Assembly: GCF_014202505.1 (NCBI RefSeq) | Contig: NZ_JACHGW010000002.1 | Location: 372,001 to 436,000 of the forward strand | Length of the DNA: 64,000 nt | Direction: 5' to 3' | From: Armatimonas rosea | Lineage (GTDB): Bacteria > Armatimonadota > Armatimonadia > Armatimonadales > Armatimonadaceae | Shown: positions 2,865 to 14,694 of the stretch, piece by piece | Layout: every line of letters begins with the position of its first letter | How positions within the stretch are numbered: position 1 is the first letter of the stretch | Notes under the pieces: model-generated | What the model was told of the DNA's origin: nothing | The model's database searches: none | The model's input: only the letters and a program-made list of their open reading frames with translations | Program-made: the position numbers and the translations under genes

Positions 2865-3527
2865 ATGCTACTTATCACCCCGCCTACGCTGACTGTACTC
2901 ACCCAGACCGATGCCAGGCCTCAGGCTGCGCGCCCGCGCGTTGCACCCATCAAGGTTGAGCTGACCCATCTCATCCCCACGGTGCTGGTGGAACTGCTCA
3001 GCACTCCCGAGCTCGCACCGCTGTTTTTCGAGGACGAGAGCCTGAAGGCGCGGGTGTCGGCGGGGAAGGTGCCGCTCGCGGCGCGGCCTGTGGGGCTGGA
3101 CAATCTTATAGCAAGCGATGCCGACCATACGCTCATTGCCCAGGGCACCCCCGAGGCCCTTAAGGAGCTCCGGGCGTTTCTCAAGAGCCTGGATGTGGAG
3201 CCTCAAGGGGTTCTGTTGACGATGCGCCAGGTGCAGAAAGGCAAGCCCGAGAGCCACCCCGTTGTCCAGACATTTAGCAACTTAAAAGCAAGCATCACGG
3301 TGGGCGGGGCGGCGGATATCCAGAGTCTCACCGTGCCCCCTCCTCTCAGCTGTGATGTCCAGAGTGTCACGGTCATCCCACACCTCAACCGTGATGGGAA
3401 GACGGTTGTGGTGGCGGCAAAGGTCAATAAAGAAAAATGGCTCGTGCAGACCGGTAAGCTCGGGGGGGAGCTGAAGTTTGTCTTTCCCCACAACCAGGAG
3501 CTGTCTCTCACCGCGACACGACAGTAG
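2865..3527 (+). CDS. secretin-like tandem paralogue 1
   Basis: 220 residues from the ATG at 2865, chosen because AGGAGA (2852-2857) sits 7 nt upstream and because the N-terminus MLLITPPTL matches the start of paralogues 3 and 4; an ATG at 2817 is less likely. About residues 75-115 resemble the N1-type ring-building domain of secretins (I.SDADHTLIAQGTPEALKELRAFLKSLDVEP in pattern: a strand, a 'T/S-P-E-A' turn, a helix and an LDV strand). The distal half has the IPHLNRDGKTV pattern that resembles the secretin beta-domain ('V.P.I..DG.V'). The protein is far too short to be a complete secretin. The N-terminus is a weak, uncharged signal-like stretch. It is the first of four tandem relatives and of unknown function. 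Confidence 0.7.
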   Translation: MLLITPPTLTVLTQTDARPQAARPRVAPIKVELTHLIPTVLVELLSTPELAPLFFEDESLKARVSAGKVPLAARPVGLDNLIASDADHTLIAQGTPEALKELRAFLKSLDVEPQGVLLTMRQVQKGKPESHPVVQTFSNLKASITVGGAADIQSLTVPPPLSCDVQSVTVIPHLNRDGKTVVVAAKVNKEKWLVQTGKLGGELKFVFPHNQELSLTATRQ

Positions 3528-3541
3528 ATAAGGCTCTTCCC

Positions 3542-4129
3542 ATGCCGTTCCCCCTTCCCCCCGCACTGGTTCAGCAAGCCCTCCCGCAGGAGAAACCGCG
3601 CCTTGTCAAGATTGAGCTCCATTTCGTAGCGCCATCGGCGGCGATGAAGCGAATCGACGGGAACGGGAAACAGAAGAGTCTCCGGCCCGATGGGCTGCGT
3701 AATGTCATTATCAGCGATGTGGATAAGGTGTTAATTCTCCAAGGCACCGAAGAAGCCGTGGCGGAGTTCAAGGCGCTCCTGCGTCTGATTGATGTCAAGC
3801 CCGTCGTCCTAGAGCTGAAGGTGCAGTTTGTGCAGGAAGGCGAGAACACGATCTACCTGCGCCTGCGCACTGCCGATGCCCAGAAAACCCGCGTGACTCT
3901 GGGAGAAGATGCCCTCGCCCGTGGCCTGCTGATCATCCCGCACTTGAGCGACGACAACAAGTCTGTCACTTTCGAGATTCTCCGTGAGGTCGGGGAGCCC
4001 TCAAAGCTGGCCGATCCCAAGAAAGTGCCCCTGATGAAGGCGGGAGCCCTCGGCCAGGAGCTGCGCATCCCGCTTGACGATGGCCTGCTCTTTCTCACCG
4101 CGACACTTCTGAAGACAGAAGGAAAGTAA
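3542..4129 (+). CDS. secretin-like tandem paralogue 2
   Basis: 195 residues. It gives the clearest secretin-like reading of the four: residues 45-95 contain LRNVIISDVDKVLILQG, then a helix with EEAVAEFKALLRLIDVKP, then a strand LELKVQFV, which is how N1/N2 secretin domains end before the gate. The second half has IIPHLSDDNKSVTFEI and closes with LRIPLDDGLLFLTAT, parallel to paralogue 1. It starts 14 bp after paralogue 1 and ends 3 bp before paralogue 3, so the four are one operon. Two copies of the domain pair in one complex would be expected to form a ring or cap; that is inference. No catalytic residues are seen. Confidence 0.72.
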   Translation: MPFPLPPALVQQALPQEKPRLVKIELHFVAPSAAMKRIDGNGKQKSLRPDGLRNVIISDVDKVLILQGTEEAVAEFKALLRLIDVKPVVLELKVQFVQEGENTIYLRLRTADAQKTRVTLGEDALARGLLIIPHLSDDNKSVTFEILREVGEPSKLADPKKVPLMKAGALGQELRIPLDDGLLFLTATLLKTEGK

Positions 4130-4132
4130 AAG

Positions 4133-4825
4133 ATGCTCTTGACGCCGCCACCCGCCTTGATCTTCCTGATGCAGGCCGCTGCAGAAAAAGAGCGAGGTAT
4201 CACGCGTGTGAGCTACGAGCTGCGCCATGTCCCGCCGGGTTACTTTCTGTACATGGTCGATAGGTCATCGCCAGCGACGCTACGTCCCAAAGGTGTCCAA
4301 ACGATCCAGTGCGACTACACGAAGCGGCAGATCACGGTCGCTGCGACCTCGACGGGGCATGCGGATCTGAAGCTGCTCCTCACGCGATTTGATGTGGTGC
4401 CCGAGCCCGAGCCCCTTCCCGTTAAGAAAATCATCCCCATTTTTTCGGAAGTCAGCCTGAAAATGAAAGGAAAGGACACGCTTGACGGAGCCATTATCGT
4501 CCCGATTGAAAAAGAGGCGACCGCGGAGTTCCCTCTCTCTGAGCCGACAGCCGTCTCCCTCTGTCCGCAGCCTGGCCGAGCTGCGAGCGAGGTCTCTTTC
4601 TACAAGTGGCGGATCACCCCACACTTCAGCCCCGATGAGAAGACCGCCACTCTTGATATTGTCTTGGTGGCGGAACAAAAACCGAAGGATCAGCTGATCT
4701 TCCTGGGGACGCAGACCGTGACCGTGGGAGTCTACACGAAAATCACCTTCCCCGCGACCATGGTACTCCCCGACAAACAGGAGTTCTTCGTCCGTGTCCG
4801 ACGCGCCAACCCCGACGACTATTAG
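4133..4825 (+). CDS. secretin-like tandem paralogue 3
   Basis: 230 residues. After an N-terminus MLLTPPPALIFLMQAAA that could be a short secretion signal, the N1-like segment (VSYELRHVPPGYFL to LLLTRFDVVP) occupies about 25-95. The C-terminal 75 residues share with paralogue 4 the blocks ITPHFSPDEKTATLD/VAHFSDDEKTARLE, LGTQTVTVG and VRV.R..PDDY, which marks a recent or constrained duplication of that domain. The position of the conserved D/E-rich turn (PHFSPDEKT) corresponds to the secretin 'P.I..DG' turn. The role is unknown; location outside the cytoplasm is probable but not shown. Confidence 0.7.
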   Translation: MLLTPPPALIFLMQAAAEKERGITRVSYELRHVPPGYFLYMVDRSSPATLRPKGVQTIQCDYTKRQITVAATSTGHADLKLLLTRFDVVPEPEPLPVKKIIPIFSEVSLKMKGKDTLDGAIIVPIEKEATAEFPLSEPTAVSLCPQPGRAASEVSFYKWRITPHFSPDEKTATLDIVLVAEQKPKDQLIFLGTQTVTVGVYTKITFPATMVLPDKQEFFVRVRRANPDDY

Positions 4826-4892
4826 TTCCCTAACGGGCGCAAAGGAAATATCATCGAGCTCCTGTCTTGGAGCCGGAAAGAAGATTGAAGTT

Positions 4893-5945
4893 ATGCTCTT
4901 ACCCACTCCCCCCGCATTTGTCTCTCTAATCCAGGCTGCTTCGCCAAAAGACGAGCTCACAACCGTTGTCTACGACCTGCACAATGTCTCGCCGGCCTAC
5001 TTTCTCCAAGAGCTAGACAGTCCTCGGAACCCGCGTCGGCCTGATGGAGTTGCGTCCATTACGCCCGACGATGTGCGGAGCATCATCATGGTCAAGGCAA
5101 CTCCCGCCGGGCATACCGCGCTGAGAGCGGTTCTGGAGAAGCTCGATACGTCTGCGCCGCCCCAGTACATCCACTTCTACCTGCACGCAACCAAAGATGG
5201 CGAGATCACGCGAGGAATTCCGCTCTCGACAGAAATAAGCGAGTCGTTGACGGTAGGCATTCAGTACAACCAGGCGGAGCTCGACGAGATGAAAAAACGC
5301 CCTTGGAACTGTCAGGTTCCTGTCAAGCCCGAGGTCGCGCTGATCTTCACGCCACACCGTGATGGCGATGATAAGACGATTCGCTTGGAGTGGCGGCTTG
5401 TGCGTTCTTTGCCGAAATCACAGACACAGACCGTGGTTCTGCCGGAGCTGACGCTCAAGATTGGGGAGAAGACCACCCTTCCCCTCAGTGATGCCCTCCC
5501 GTCTTCACTCTCCGCTCTCAACATGACCGCGTGGCTGGAGCCGAAAGTGGCGCCCAACTCCGTGGCTGCTTCCCAACAAGCCAACTCCTCGATCTATGCC
5601 GAAACCCGCGTCCAGGTAAAGAAGAAGGGCGAGCTGTTTCAGGCTCCGATCACCGCGCACGCCAAAGACGCCCCGGCTGAGTTTTACTTCGAGGAGCTAC
5701 AGGCTCAGGGGCAGACACTTGGCATTGTCGCCCACTTCAGCGACGATGAGAAAACGGCGCGGCTCGAATACTTTCTGCGGGTCAAAGACAACCTTCAGGC
5801 ATCGGTGATCTCGCTGGGCACGCAGACCGTGACGGTCGGGGAGAACACCAAGATGGTTCTCGACAAGCCCCTTGGCCTGACGGATGCCGATGAGTTCTAC
5901 GTCCGTGTCCAGCGTGTCACCCCCGACGACTATCTGCTTCCCTAA
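4893..5945 (+). CDS. secretin-like tandem paralogue 4 (two C-terminal repeats)
   Basis: 350 residues from the ATG at 4893; this start gives MLLPTPPAFVSLIQAA, collinear with the N-terminus of paralogue 3, and avoids the long overlap that an ATG at 4794 would create. The N1-like segment lies at about 25-85 (YDLHNVSPAYFL to LRAVLEKLDT). Two copies of the beta-type domain follow, about 95-215 and 230-350, the second ending LGTQTVTVG ... YVRVQRVTPDDY like paralogue 3. The protein therefore looks like a fusion or internal duplication within the family. It ends the four-gene run; the next gene is convergent 16 bp away. Confidence 0.7.
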   Translation: MLLPTPPAFVSLIQAASPKDELTTVVYDLHNVSPAYFLQELDSPRNPRRPDGVASITPDDVRSIIMVKATPAGHTALRAVLEKLDTSAPPQYIHFYLHATKDGEITRGIPLSTEISESLTVGIQYNQAELDEMKKRPWNCQVPVKPEVALIFTPHRDGDDKTIRLEWRLVRSLPKSQTQTVVLPELTLKIGEKTTLPLSDALPSSLSALNMTAWLEPKVAPNSVAASQQANSSIYAETRVQVKKKGELFQAPITAHAKDAPAEFYFEELQAQGQTLGIVAHFSDDEKTARLEYFLRVKDNLQASVISLGTQTVTVGENTKMVLDKPLGLTDADEFYVRVQRVTPDDYLLP

Positions 5946-7258: not shown

Positions 7259-7696
7259 GTGCCACTTCCTGCCTTTCAAAGTGATGGAAACCTGCCGGAA
7301 GGGATCTACTCTGCTAGCTGGTCGGAGCTGGCCGAGCATTTCGGAGGAACGGAACGTCGCCAGCAGCTTCTTCAGCGCTTGGAACAGCTCTACGGGCTCG
7401 CGAGCGCAACCACGTTTTTGGAGCGCTTTGTTGTCTTTGGAAGCTTTGTTACCACAAAACCAGAGCCCGGCGATGTGGATGTCATCCTGGTGATGCGTCC
7501 GGGATTTCAGAGTGCTAGAGTAGGCGAACCAGCCTGTTTTCTCTTCGATCACGATGAAGAAGACCGGCGTTTTGGAGCCAGTATTTTCTGGATTCGGACA
7601 GACTTGCTGATCCTGGAGACCGTGGAGGAGTTTCTTGACTACTGGCAAACACGGCGTGACGGGGGGCGGCGCGGTATTATTGAGGTGGTGCCATGA
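7259..7696 (+). CDS. minimal nucleotidyltransferase (DUF6932-like)
   Basis: 145 residues from a GTG at 7259, with a G-run (7245-7250) 8 nt upstream acting as ribosome site. The core VVFGSFVTTKPEPGDVDVILVM at about 61-82 is the GS...D.D motif of the polymerase-beta nucleotidyltransferase fold: the Gly-Ser pair and the two aspartates that bind metal. The size and lack of further domains fit the MNT/DUF6932 group, often found as half of toxin-antitoxin pairs. It overlaps the next small gene by 4 bp (ATGA), so translation is coupled. Substrate unknown; AMPylation or nucleotide addition on a partner or RNA is the family precedent. Confidence 0.75.
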   Translation: MPLPAFQSDGNLPEGIYSASWSELAEHFGGTERRQQLLQRLEQLYGLASATTFLERFVVFGSFVTTKPEPGDVDVILVMRPGFQSARVGEPACFLFDHDEEDRRFGASIFWIRTDLLILETVEEFLDYWQTRRDGGRRGIIEVVP

Positions 7697-7902
7697 TTCA
7701 AAATGACCAAGAACTGAGAGTAACACAGGAGCGCATTGTGCGCTTTGAGAGCTTGCTGGCCCAGCTTCGGGTCAGTGCCAGCCGGGAAGAGTTTCCGCAG
7801 GTTTCGGGAGGCTACCGACGAGAGATTGAGCGAATGCACACAGAAGTGATGGAGTATCTCACGCGGCATAGCAGTGACGCGCCGCTCGCGATACAACGAT
7901 AG
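7693..7902 (+). CDS. short partner of the nucleotidyltransferase, antitoxin-like
   Basis: 69 residues, predicted almost wholly alpha-helical: MIQNDQELRVTQERIVRF and GYRREIERMHTEVMEYL. This pattern is the N-terminal helical half seen in HigA-type antitoxins (MI.N...Y..T...I..F ... EI..M..E...YL), here without the helix-turn-helix that follows in full-length members. The start codon overlaps the stop of the nucleotidyltransferase by 4 bp. The pair is best read as a two-gene module in which this protein binds the enzyme. It could equally be a stand-alone conserved partner of DUF6932 with no toxin role. Confidence 0.7.
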   Translation: MIQNDQELRVTQERIVRFESLLAQLRVSASREEFPQVSGGYRREIERMHTEVMEYLTRHSSDAPLAIQR

Positions 7903-7904
7903 CC

Positions 7905-9236
7905 ATGTCTTTTGATGTCACAGTAATCGGGGCGGGGATGGCGGGGAGCGAGGCGGCGTGGCAGGCGGCGCAGCGGGGGGCGAAGGTTCGGCTGGTCGAG
8001 ATGCGGCCCAAGAAGCTGACCCCGGCGCACCAGAGCGACAAGGCGGCGGAGATTGTCTGCTCGAACTCGTTTAAGAGCAACCATATTTCGAATGCGAGCG
8101 GCTTGCTCAAAGATGAGATGCGTAAGCTCGACTCGCTCATCGTGAGCTGCGCCGATGCCACTTCCGTTCCCGCGGGCGAGGCGCTGGCCGTGGACCGGGA
8201 GGCGTTCTCGGAGCTGGTGACCGAGCGGCTCCTGGCGCACCCGAGTATTGAGTTTGTCCGCGACGAAGCCACGGAGATTCCGGGCGAGGGAAAGGTGATT
8301 ATCGCCAGCGGCCCGCTGACCTCCGATGCGCTCGCGGCCCAGATTGGGCAGCTCACCGGGCGCTACGATCTCTATTTCTACGATGCGGTCGCGCCGATTG
8401 TCGATGCCAGCACGATTGACTATACGAAGGTCTTTCGGGCGTCGCGGCGGGGCAAGGGGCTGGAGGCGGACACGTCGGACGATGCGGCCTACCTCAACTG
8501 CCCGATGAACAAGGAGGAGTACACCGCGCTCTGGCAGGCCATCACGGAGGCGGAGCTGGCACCGGTTCACGACTTCGAGGACATCAAGTACTTCGAGGCC
8601 TGCTTGCCTGTCGAGGAGCTGGCGCGGCGCGGCGAGCGGACGCTCTCCTTTGGCCCGCTCAAGCCGGTCGGGCTGGAAGACCCGCGCACGGGGCGTCGCC
8701 CGTGGGCCGTGGTGCAGCTGCGGCAGGAGAACAAGGCGGGGACTCTCTACAACTTAGTCGGCTTCCAGACCCGCATGAAGTGGGGGGCGCAGAAGAAAGT
8801 CCTCCAGCTCATCCCCGGCCTGGAGAACGCGGAGTTCGTGCGCTTTGGGGTCATGCACCGCAACACCTACATCCACTCCCCGAGCCTCCTCGACGCCACG
8901 CTCGCCCTCAAGTCCGACCCACGGATTCGCTTCGCCGGGCAGATTGTCGGGGTGGAGGGGTATCTAGAGTCCGCCGCGATGGGCCTGATCGCCGGCCTTA
9001 ACTCCAGCCGTGAGACACCGATCATCTTCCCGCAGAGCACGTCGCTGGGGTGCCTGACGCACTATGTCGCCCACTACGAAGGCAAGCCCAAGGACTTCGC
9101 GCCCATGAACGCCAACTGGGGCATGATGCCTCCTCTGGAGGGCGACCGCATCCGAGACAAGAAAGAGCGCGGCCGCGCCATGGCCGCCCGAGGCCAAGCT
9201 GATTTCGACAAAGCACGGGAGCAGGTGGGGCTATGA
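7905..9236 (+). CDS. trmFO: TrmFO, folate-dependent tRNA m5U54 methyltransferase
   Basis: 443 residues, the usual family length. It makes 5-methyluridine at position 54 of the tRNA T-loop using methylenetetrahydrofolate and FADH2, in the cytoplasm. The N-terminal FAD-binding Rossmann motif VIGAGMAGSEAAW is at 7-19, followed by the family blocks VEMRPKK, CSNSFKSN with the conserved cysteine near 53, YLNCPMNKEEY, FEACLPVEELARRG, and the C-terminal GLIAGLNSSR and LGCLTHYVAH. The start lies 2 bp after the antitoxin-like gene, with TACAAC at 7892-7897 as a possible -10 only 7 nt upstream. It overlaps the following gene by 4 bp. Very secure assignment. Confidence 0.97.
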   Translation: MSFDVTVIGAGMAGSEAAWQAAQRGAKVRLVEMRPKKLTPAHQSDKAAEIVCSNSFKSNHISNASGLLKDEMRKLDSLIVSCADATSVPAGEALAVDREAFSELVTERLLAHPSIEFVRDEATEIPGEGKVIIASGPLTSDALAAQIGQLTGRYDLYFYDAVAPIVDASTIDYTKVFRASRRGKGLEADTSDDAAYLNCPMNKEEYTALWQAITEAELAPVHDFEDIKYFEACLPVEELARRGERTLSFGPLKPVGLEDPRTGRRPWAVVQLRQENKAGTLYNLVGFQTRMKWGAQKKVLQLIPGLENAEFVRFGVMHRNTYIHSPSLLDATLALKSDPRIRFAGQIVGVEGYLESAAMGLIAGLNSSRETPIIFPQSTSLGCLTHYVAHYEGKPKDFAPMNANWGMMPPLEGDRIRDKKERGRAMAARGQADFDKAREQVGL

Positions 9237-13526: not shown

Positions 13527-14297
13527 ATGAAAGATGACCTGGGCGACCGTATGAAGCGCGACTACGAGAGCCGCACGCGCTTCCTACTACCGCGCCGCAC
13601 TTACACGCTGCTCCGTATCGACGGTAAGGCGTTCCACACCTACACGCGCGGCTGCGCCCGCCCCTACGACCTGGAGCTCATGGCCGATATGGATCGGGCT
13701 GCCGCCGCGCTCTGCAAGGAGGCGCAGGGTGCCGCGCTCGGCTATGTCCAGAGCGATGAGATCAGCGTGCTTCTGACAGACTTTAGCGACACGGGCACCG
13801 AGGCGTGGTTCGACGGCAACCTCCAGAAGCTGGCCTCGATCTCGGCGAGCCTTGTCACCGCGCACTTCAACGCCGCCCGCATTGCCCGTGGTGTTGCGGA
13901 TAAACTAGCTGTCTTTGATGCGCGGGTCTGGACCATTCCAATGCCAGTCGAGGTGGAGAACTACTTTATCTGGCGCCAGCAGGACGCCACCCGCAACGCG
14001 ATCTCGATGACGGCGCACGCCCACTTCTCGCACGCCTCGCTCCAGGGGCTCTCCACGGATCAGCTGCAGGAGCGGCTCTTTGCGGAGAAAGGCATCAACT
14101 TCAACGACCTGCCGGTCGGCTTCAAGCGTGGCCGGGTGATCGAGCGCCAGACCCGCGAGGAGCCCGTGACCTACACGCATAAGCGTACCGGCGAGGAGCA
14201 GAGCGCGCTGGCTCTGCGGAGCGCCTGGGGCTCGGTCGAGCCGCCCGTCTTCACGCGGGATCGCCCGTGGTTGAAGGAGCGCATTCCGGTACACTAG
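13527..14297 (+). CDS. Thg1-like 3'-5' tRNA nucleotidyltransferase
   Basis: 256 residues. Thg1 enzymes add G to the 5' end of tRNA-His in eukaryotes; bacterial and archaeal Thg1-like proteins (TLPs) repair 5'-truncated tRNAs by templated 3'-5' addition. The catalytic metal site is visible as LLRIDGKAFHTYTRG (Asp near 32) and GYVQSDEISVLL (Asp near 77), and KLASISASLVTAHFN and RNAISMTAHAHFSH are characteristic family blocks. Length matches the family. Upstream is a 34-bp gap after the propeller gene; downstream lies a truncated DUF1016 gene 4 bp away. The assignment is strong; whether its role is repair or tRNA-His maturation cannot be told from sequence. Confidence 0.93.
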   Translation: MKDDLGDRMKRDYESRTRFLLPRRTYTLLRIDGKAFHTYTRGCARPYDLELMADMDRAAAALCKEAQGAALGYVQSDEISVLLTDFSDTGTEAWFDGNLQKLASISASLVTAHFNAARIARGVADKLAVFDARVWTIPMPVEVENYFIWRQQDATRNAISMTAHAHFSHASLQGLSTDQLQERLFAEKGINFNDLPVGFKRGRVIERQTREEPVTYTHKRTGEEQSALALRSAWGSVEPPVFTRDRPWLKERIPVH

Positions 14298-14301
14298 GCG
14301 C

Positions 14302-14694
14302 ATGGATGCTAGGCAAGTAGAGCTTCTTCCCACCGGCTACGACGCGCTCTTGAAGGCCATCAAGGAGCGAGTGAGCACCGTGCAGGTCCGCGCCGCCGTG
14401 GCGGTCAACACCGAACTGGTCCGTCTGTACTGGAGCATTGGGCACGACATTCTTCAGAAGCAACAAGCAGAGGGCTGGGGCAGCAAGGTGATTGACCGCC
14501 TCTCCCGCGACCTAAAAGCATCGTTTCCGACGATGCAGGGATTCTCGCGAACAAGCTTGTTGTATATGCGCGCTTTTGCTGCCGCTTGGCCAGACGAGGC
14601 AATTGTCCAACGGGTCGTTGGACAATTGCCATGGCGGCAAAACATCGCCTTGCTGGACAAGCTCAAAGACCCGGAGCTGCGGCTCTGGAGCTAA
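14302..14694 (+). pseudogene. truncated DUF1016 (YhcG-type) nuclease N-terminal domain
   Basis: 130 residues matching only the N-terminal domain of DUF1016/YhcG proteins: RAAVAVNTELVRLYWSIGHDI, then GWGSKVIDRLSRDLK, FPTMQGFSRTSLLYMRAF and LPWRQNIALLDKLKDPELRLW. Full-length members are about 340-370 residues and carry a PDDEXK nuclease domain after this point; here a stop follows at once and the ATP-grasp gene begins 18 bp later, so the nuclease half has been deleted. TACACT at 14290-14295, 6 nt before the ATG, may be a promoter, so a helical stub could still be made. DUF1016 genes are common in defence and restriction regions. Confidence 0.8.

Follow-up and report, generated by a model that had tools for sequence, protein, structure and literature searches.

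Secretins are usually regarded as outer-membrane pores. PilQ, for example, combines a Secretin domain (PF00263, hereafter the C-domain) with a Secretin_N domain (PF03958, hereafter N1). The four genes described here lie in tandem on the plus strand of a 64-kb window of the Armatimonas rosea genome (contig C2, positions 372001-436000; the genome measures 6.3 Mb in 19 contigs), and all gene positions refer to that whole window. Their products have N1 and a collinear remnant of the C-domain in common with PilQ. They differ from it in size (195-350 amino acids (aa) against about 550 aa) and in having neither the stretch that precedes the gate segment, nor the lip motif, N0/STN, or a clear signal peptide. 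The ring-building type of fold is used outside the secretin pore by SpoIIIAG and FliF, but these are other families, and the module in the window additionally keeps the C-domain remnant. In BlaR1 the C-terminal position of the M56 protease (PF05569) holds the penicillin-sensing domain, and some relatives of our module are found beside, or fused to, the C terminus of an M56 protein near BlaI, whereas the window genes have no such neighbour. STN (PF07660) proteins are known from extracytoplasmic function (ECF) signalling. One relative in the A. rosea genome shares its locus with an ECF sigma factor and a protein of STN type (20.2 bits; cut-off 28.4), although the short forms carry N1 and a C-domain rather than STN, and no sigma factor stands beside the window genes.

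The comparisons reported below firmly assign the four proteins to the secretin family and show just as firmly that parts of the pore have been lost. They also establish a phylum-wide family, of which the four are members that no curated model reaches above its cut-off.

Secretin descent of the four genes

A preliminary description, made from the sequence alone, had presented the four as adjacent plus-strand genes that are related to each other. Coordinates and strand agree with the list of open reading frames (Table 1), and the relationship goes beyond chance, with pairwise blastp expect values (E) of 2e-19 (genes 3 and 4), 7e-18 (genes 1 and 2), 1e-10 (genes 2 and 4), 1e-6 (genes 1 and 4), 3e-6 (genes 2 and 3), and 4e-4 (genes 1 and 3). 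None of the four frames is interrupted, and their codon use is coding-like. The intergenic gaps are 14, 3, and 67 bp, and an AGGAG lies upstream of the ATG of gene 1.

Pfam Secretin_N scores below its cut-off of 28.2 bits on genes 1, 2, and 4 (16.1, 12.9, and 16.3 bits) and does not match gene 3, and no Pfam or NCBIfam model exceeds its own cut-off for any of the four proteins. Taken alone, the Pfam evidence is not convincing, and at the level of sequence it is the intermediate relatives that decide the secretin origin. A profile of the four window proteins (A1) matches the PilQ-like secretin of the same genome with E 2.9e-12. When 17 short proteins were compared with 18 full Armatimonadota secretins in hhalign, the E was 2.8e-23, and the two sets matched collinearly, interrupted by a single large gap, from N1 as far as the R-x-x-x-G-x-T strand. 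Conversely, a profile of 33 short forms from outside the window matches all four window proteins (3e-26 to 4e-19). A leave-out profile of 31 relatives, from which the window genes, the same-genus ortholog, and the M56-operon paralogue had been excluded, still recovers gene 2 at 3.9e-23, gene 1 at 6e-21, gene 4 at 1.9e-14, and gene 3 at 8.7e-8, whereas the best of its controls (4 reversed and 64 other window proteins) reaches only 0.31.

The predicted fold leads to the same family. An AlphaFold2 model of gene 2, for which the input alignment consisted of the four window sequences only, has a predicted local distance difference test score (pLDDT) of 70.5 and a predicted template modelling score (pTM) of 0.48. 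It consists of an N1-type beta-alpha-beta-beta-alpha-beta domain followed by an all-beta distal domain. In a Foldseek search of the Protein Data Bank (PDB), ranks 1-24 are all secretins (best 1.6e-6, pIV) at template modelling (TM) scores of only 0.40-0.48. Likewise, rows 1-35 of the VIA-align results are secretins, with the first unrelated row at Z 6.5. N1 alone gives Z 9.3 at 2.1 Å (XcpQ), and the distal half alone gives Z 8.6 (RcpA, model residues 87-195) and 8.2, while the full-length matches have a large root-mean-square deviation of about 4.5-9 Å.

The idea that the proteins are built from secretin-like domains is thus confirmed for N1 by profile and fold searches and extends to the distal domain. 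N1 is homologous to that of secretins by profile match and structural match. The distal P-H-x-D-G-K segment is a shortened version of the homologous secretin C-domain, for which the window four by themselves provide weak evidence. It could be argued that N1 alone derives from a secretin and that an unrelated beta domain merely resembles the C-domain, since the window four give weak leave-out matches when the distal half is used by itself (0.0004-0.075 at Z=100) and their distal halves compare with secretin C-domains only at P 0.017. We consider this very improbable. Reversed distal controls come out at 6.5-9.7, and the window four match the other short forms over the distal half at 4.7e-4. These forms in turn bridge to clear secretin C-domain sequence (4.1e-9; reversed controls of these distal comparisons 0.43-0.47). 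Furthermore, a relative in locus L056 scores 30.6 bits with Secretin_N and 18.8 bits with part of Secretin, and the modelled distal half fits RcpA and another secretin on its own.

Several sequence details of the preliminary description need adjusting. LGTQTVTVG is present in both gene 3 and gene 4, as stated, and a start of the form MLL.TPP is found in genes 1, 3, and 4, but gene 2 begins with MPFPLPP. The P-H-(x)-(D/E)-G/D-K turn recurs in the distal segments, except that the second copy in gene 4 reads AHFSDDEK, without the P, and PDDY is the terminus in gene 3 only, gene 4 continuing with LLP. The duplication of the distal domain in gene 4 was recovered with the profile of the 33 non-window short forms, which matches residues 12-201 and 239-344 (copy 2 with an independent E of 1.8e-7). 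The stricter leave-out profile of 31 rows does not separate copy 2 cleanly, placing a second stretch at 161-298 with 0.012, and gives 0.02 at Z=100 in a distal-only test.

Table 1. The four mini-secretin genes, in window positions; domain limits are approximate
Gene	Position	Strand	Product	N1	Distal C-domain remnant	Second distal copy
Gene 1	2865..3527	+	220 aa mini-secretin	2946-3200	3201-3524	
Gene 2	3542..4129	+	195 aa mini-secretin	3599-3802	3803-4111	
Gene 3	4133..4825	+	230 aa mini-secretin	4208-4396	4397-4813	
Gene 4	4893..5945	+	350 aa	4959-5156	5157-5504	5505-5927

Missing pore parts and the accessory-ring question

The extent of the loss was read from a single alignment that combines 37 short forms with 18 full Armatimonadota secretins. 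From the invariant aspartate of N1 to the TPH motif, the short forms span a median of 54 residues (44-98), compared with 128 (125-131) in the secretins; in gene 4 this stretch amounts to 195 residues, with the extra domain falling inside it. The C-terminal tail has a median of 77 residues (47-114) against 115.5 (110-132). Overall, the short forms lack about 75 residues ahead of the gate segment and about 40 C-terminal residues. The lip motif is found in none of the 37 short forms and in 17 of the 18 secretins, which had been selected in part with a less strict version of it. What is kept of the C-domain comprises the first strand, a remnant of the gate segment, the V-x-P-H strand, the R-x-x-x-G-x-T strand, and the last strand.

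In the secretin domain of BfpB (PMC12114550), the outer barrel is formed by roughly the first 85 and roughly the last 50 residues, and the inner barrel and the gates sit between these segments. By that layout, what the short forms retain would be chiefly strands of the inner barrel and the gates, and most of the outer part that spans the membrane would be gone. A complete C-domain, with the pre-gate barrel strands and the lip motif of an outer-membrane channel, is absent from the sequences. As both of these elements are gone, the usual pore can presumably not be formed. The earlier remark that none of the proteins, at 195-350 aa, is long enough for a full secretin holds.

No pilQ or gspD gene had been noticed next to the four, and indeed all Secretin and Secretin_N matches of the genome lie outside the window. 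A full secretin or pilus locus in the window was rejected as a candidate; among the full-length proteins of the genome, the closest relative is PilQ-like and 548 aa long, and its gene lies at C1:1390062, followed by a gene that we take to be shikimate-kinase-like (aroK).

The preliminary description had suggested rings or caps that work with a secretin encoded elsewhere. Here, N1 would stack onto, or fit into, the ring of N-domains of the PilQ-like protein and modulate its gate or anchor partners. In secretins N1 serves as the ring domain, and the window version closely resembles that of the PilQ-like protein, as indicated by the A1 match and by 43% identity over 56 columns. Moreover, a full secretin is encoded in 25 of the 25 short-form genomes tested, none of these genomes being without one. 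Full secretins are, however, common in the phylum, which makes the co-occurrence uninformative. No pilus or secretion locus was seen among the short-form neighbourhoods listed, and a fusion to an M56 protease is not what would be expected of a cap. In our estimation, an accessory ring or cap is a rather unlikely role for the four proteins.

Other degrees of shortening were observed. At L021:1432-1998 (C1:41079-41366 in the A. rosea genome) a 188-aa protein matches the Secretin domain in part (32.7 bits, positions 7-119) with no N1 match and no lip motif seen, that is, a short form with the C-domain only, and the same-genus genome G001 has a similar match (188-aa frame, 31 bits). In genome G017 a 321-aa secretin-like protein (L064:8392-9357) keeps the pre-gate segment and shows no lip motif; its gene is followed by one for 290 aa that shares the N1-like motif, and the 321-aa protein looks intermediate between full and mini-secretins.

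Relatives, neighbourhoods, and evolution in Armatimonadota

A search of the phylum matched 213 of 291 Armatimonadota genomes, full secretins included. Stand-alone short forms are present in at least 23 of the 291 genomes and fused forms in at least two (G065 and G067, of which only the G067 protein was read); both numbers are lower bounds taken from the matches listed and the reading frames read. The notion of a repurposed domain family, also put forward in the preliminary description, agrees with this survey as well as with the profile and fold results. Outside the phylum, profile A2 found nothing in 149 Acidobacteriota genomes at 1e-8 or in 5 genomes at 1e-5, which shows little as full secretins were likewise missed. 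The listings from our literature searches contain no account of barrel-less secretins or of secretin-M56 fusions.

Some neighbourhoods contain BlaI and M56. In G067 (locus L106) BlaI is followed by a 740-aa M56 protein whose C-terminal part is the mini module (M56 82.3 bits, Secretin_N 24.8 bits). In A. rosea itself, overlapping frames in locus L007 encode BlaI, M56, and a short form that is preceded by a transmembrane segment; this short form is the paralogue nearest to genes 1 and 2. BlaI or M56 genes do not adjoin the four window genes. Furthermore, A. rosea and G001 each have a locus that encodes an ECF sigma factor and in which a short form comes after an STN-type protein. The BlaI-M56 and ECF contexts favour a role in regulation or as adaptors in the envelope, as far as the relatives are concerned. 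A pair of short forms linked to asnS adjoins a gene for a PP2C-type phosphatase.

Tandem groups recur as well. Beside folC, G006 carries two intact copies plus a split one, and in G099 two short forms adjoin each other, one of them truncated by the end of the contig. The split G006 copy (L056:7264-8042) occupies frames of 153 and 90 aa, reflecting either a real frameshift or an assembly error. G001, the only same-genus genome, has a single ortholog of genes 3 and 4, which lies directly upstream of trmFO. In a tree of 37 short forms, genes 3 and 4 fall into one clade with this ortholog (100/100), gene 3 being its nearest neighbour (98/80), while genes 1 and 2 group weakly with the M56-operon paralogue (90/59). 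Copies 3 and 4 therefore split before the two species did, and G001 has lost copies or never had all four. Few deep branches are resolved in this tree, which would fit either a single origin of the family or several.

Gene 3 and its G001 ortholog are 56% identical, with codon-position differences of 0.32/0.26/0.51. Their nonsynonymous divergence (dN) is 0.36 at a synonymous divergence (dS) of 1.26, which is near saturation, while the dN of the neighbouring trmFO is 0.035. The genes are constrained, yet they evolve about ten times faster than trmFO. Such fast divergence, the split relative in G006, and the single G001 gene as against four in the window might be taken as signs that the four are duplicated secretin genes decaying towards loss. 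This explanation is already largely excluded and has a very small probability in our view, considering that the four window frames are intact and coding-like in codon use, that third-position changes dominate between the orthologs, and that the identical truncated layout recurs in many families of the phylum.

In the window trmFO lies at 7905. It was considered as a conserved partner and rejected: the linkage is seen in the window and in G001, but five Armatimonadota trmFO loci (L117-L121) had no short form nearby, and trmFO looks like a bystander. The four genes are flanked upstream by a divergent TPR/AAA-ATPase gene pair and downstream by a minus-strand gene without a Pfam match. A promoter scan was uninformative (1 site against 0.8 expected, on the opposite strand). 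Just upstream of trmFO, at 7259-7902, a DUF6932 gene (105.8 bits) overlaps a gene for 69 aa. The pair has the look of a two-gene module, and G001 has no gene calls for it at the equivalent position. Further along, a 256-aa protein (13527-14297), presumably a bacterial Thg1-type guanylyltransferase, has a close relative at L054:6109-6879. At 14302-14694 lies a 130-aa open reading frame whose start matches a 351-aa G001 protein (L054:5049-6104), the window copy apparently being cut short.

Cellular location and possible use

No clear signal peptide was seen in the window four by a hydropathy measure. By this crude measure, their best 11-residue N-terminal stretch scores 1.17-1.72, whereas relatives that have plain signal peptides reach about 2.3-3.3; in gene 2 the best hydrophobic stretch falls inside N1. 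The four could accordingly be cytoplasmic proteins that use N1 and the beta modules as protein-interaction domains inside the cell. Genes 1-4 and the relatives in L014, L055, L015, and L116 have no plain signal peptide and begin with N1 or close to it, and the asnS-linked pair stands beside the phosphatase gene. Still, other relatives have plain signal peptides (e.g., L056, L057, and L110) or a membrane anchor (L007), the window N-termini resemble weakened signal sequences (MLLTPPPALIFLMQAAA), and the start sites of some relatives are uncertain. A cytoplasmic location is, in our estimation, rather improbable.

Our best reading, to which we give somewhat less than an even chance, is that the four are repurposed, pore-less secretins that serve as adaptor or sensor modules of the envelope, where location, role, and oligomerisation are all inferred. 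The genes are tandemly duplicated "mini-secretins" descended from outer-membrane secretins, which kept N1, of the ring-building type, and a shortened C-domain and lost the barrel-building pre-gate stretch and the lip motif. Their products would most likely be small envelope modules, either soluble or membrane-tethered. N1 may be used for association with each other or with a partner, the beta-domain may be offered as a binding or sensing surface, and four diverged copies from an apparent single operon could assemble into one mixed complex. The nearest paralogues point to a regulatory or sensory use, which is observed in the context of these relatives and would be extended to the window genes by analogy.

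Several observations weigh against this proposal. The N-terminal hydrophobic stretch is weak and is not preceded by a basic residue in genes 1, 3, and 4, so that the proteins may not be exported. A full secretin accompanied the short forms in every genome tested, which leaves room for an accessory role, and the distal half of the window four needs the intermediate relatives to be linked to secretin C-domains. The contexts of the relatives vary (folC, recJ, asnS/PP2C, lepA, and trmFO; we assigned the folC, recJ, lepA, and asnS labels provisionally, from reading the translations) and do not indicate a single function. Finally, the gene 2 model is of moderate quality within a set of five that spans pLDDT 70.5 to 40.0, and the gene 4 model is poor (50.3) and was kept out of the fold searches.

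A wider and more tentative proposal is that fast-evolving, barrel-less secretins have been domesticated throughout Armatimonadota, on a large scale, to serve as sensing or adaptor modules outside the cytoplasm. They may, in some lineages, take the place of the sensor domain of a BlaR1-type or ECF system, and here they may form a four-gene operon. The fusion to M56 makes a sensory role directly testable. If the proposal is true, the annotation of such genes as secretion-system proteins would need correcting, and the family would provide small soluble models of the secretin C-domain. It would also mean that a giant pore can be dismantled and reused, with its ring-building and gate parts kept and its membrane parts dropped.

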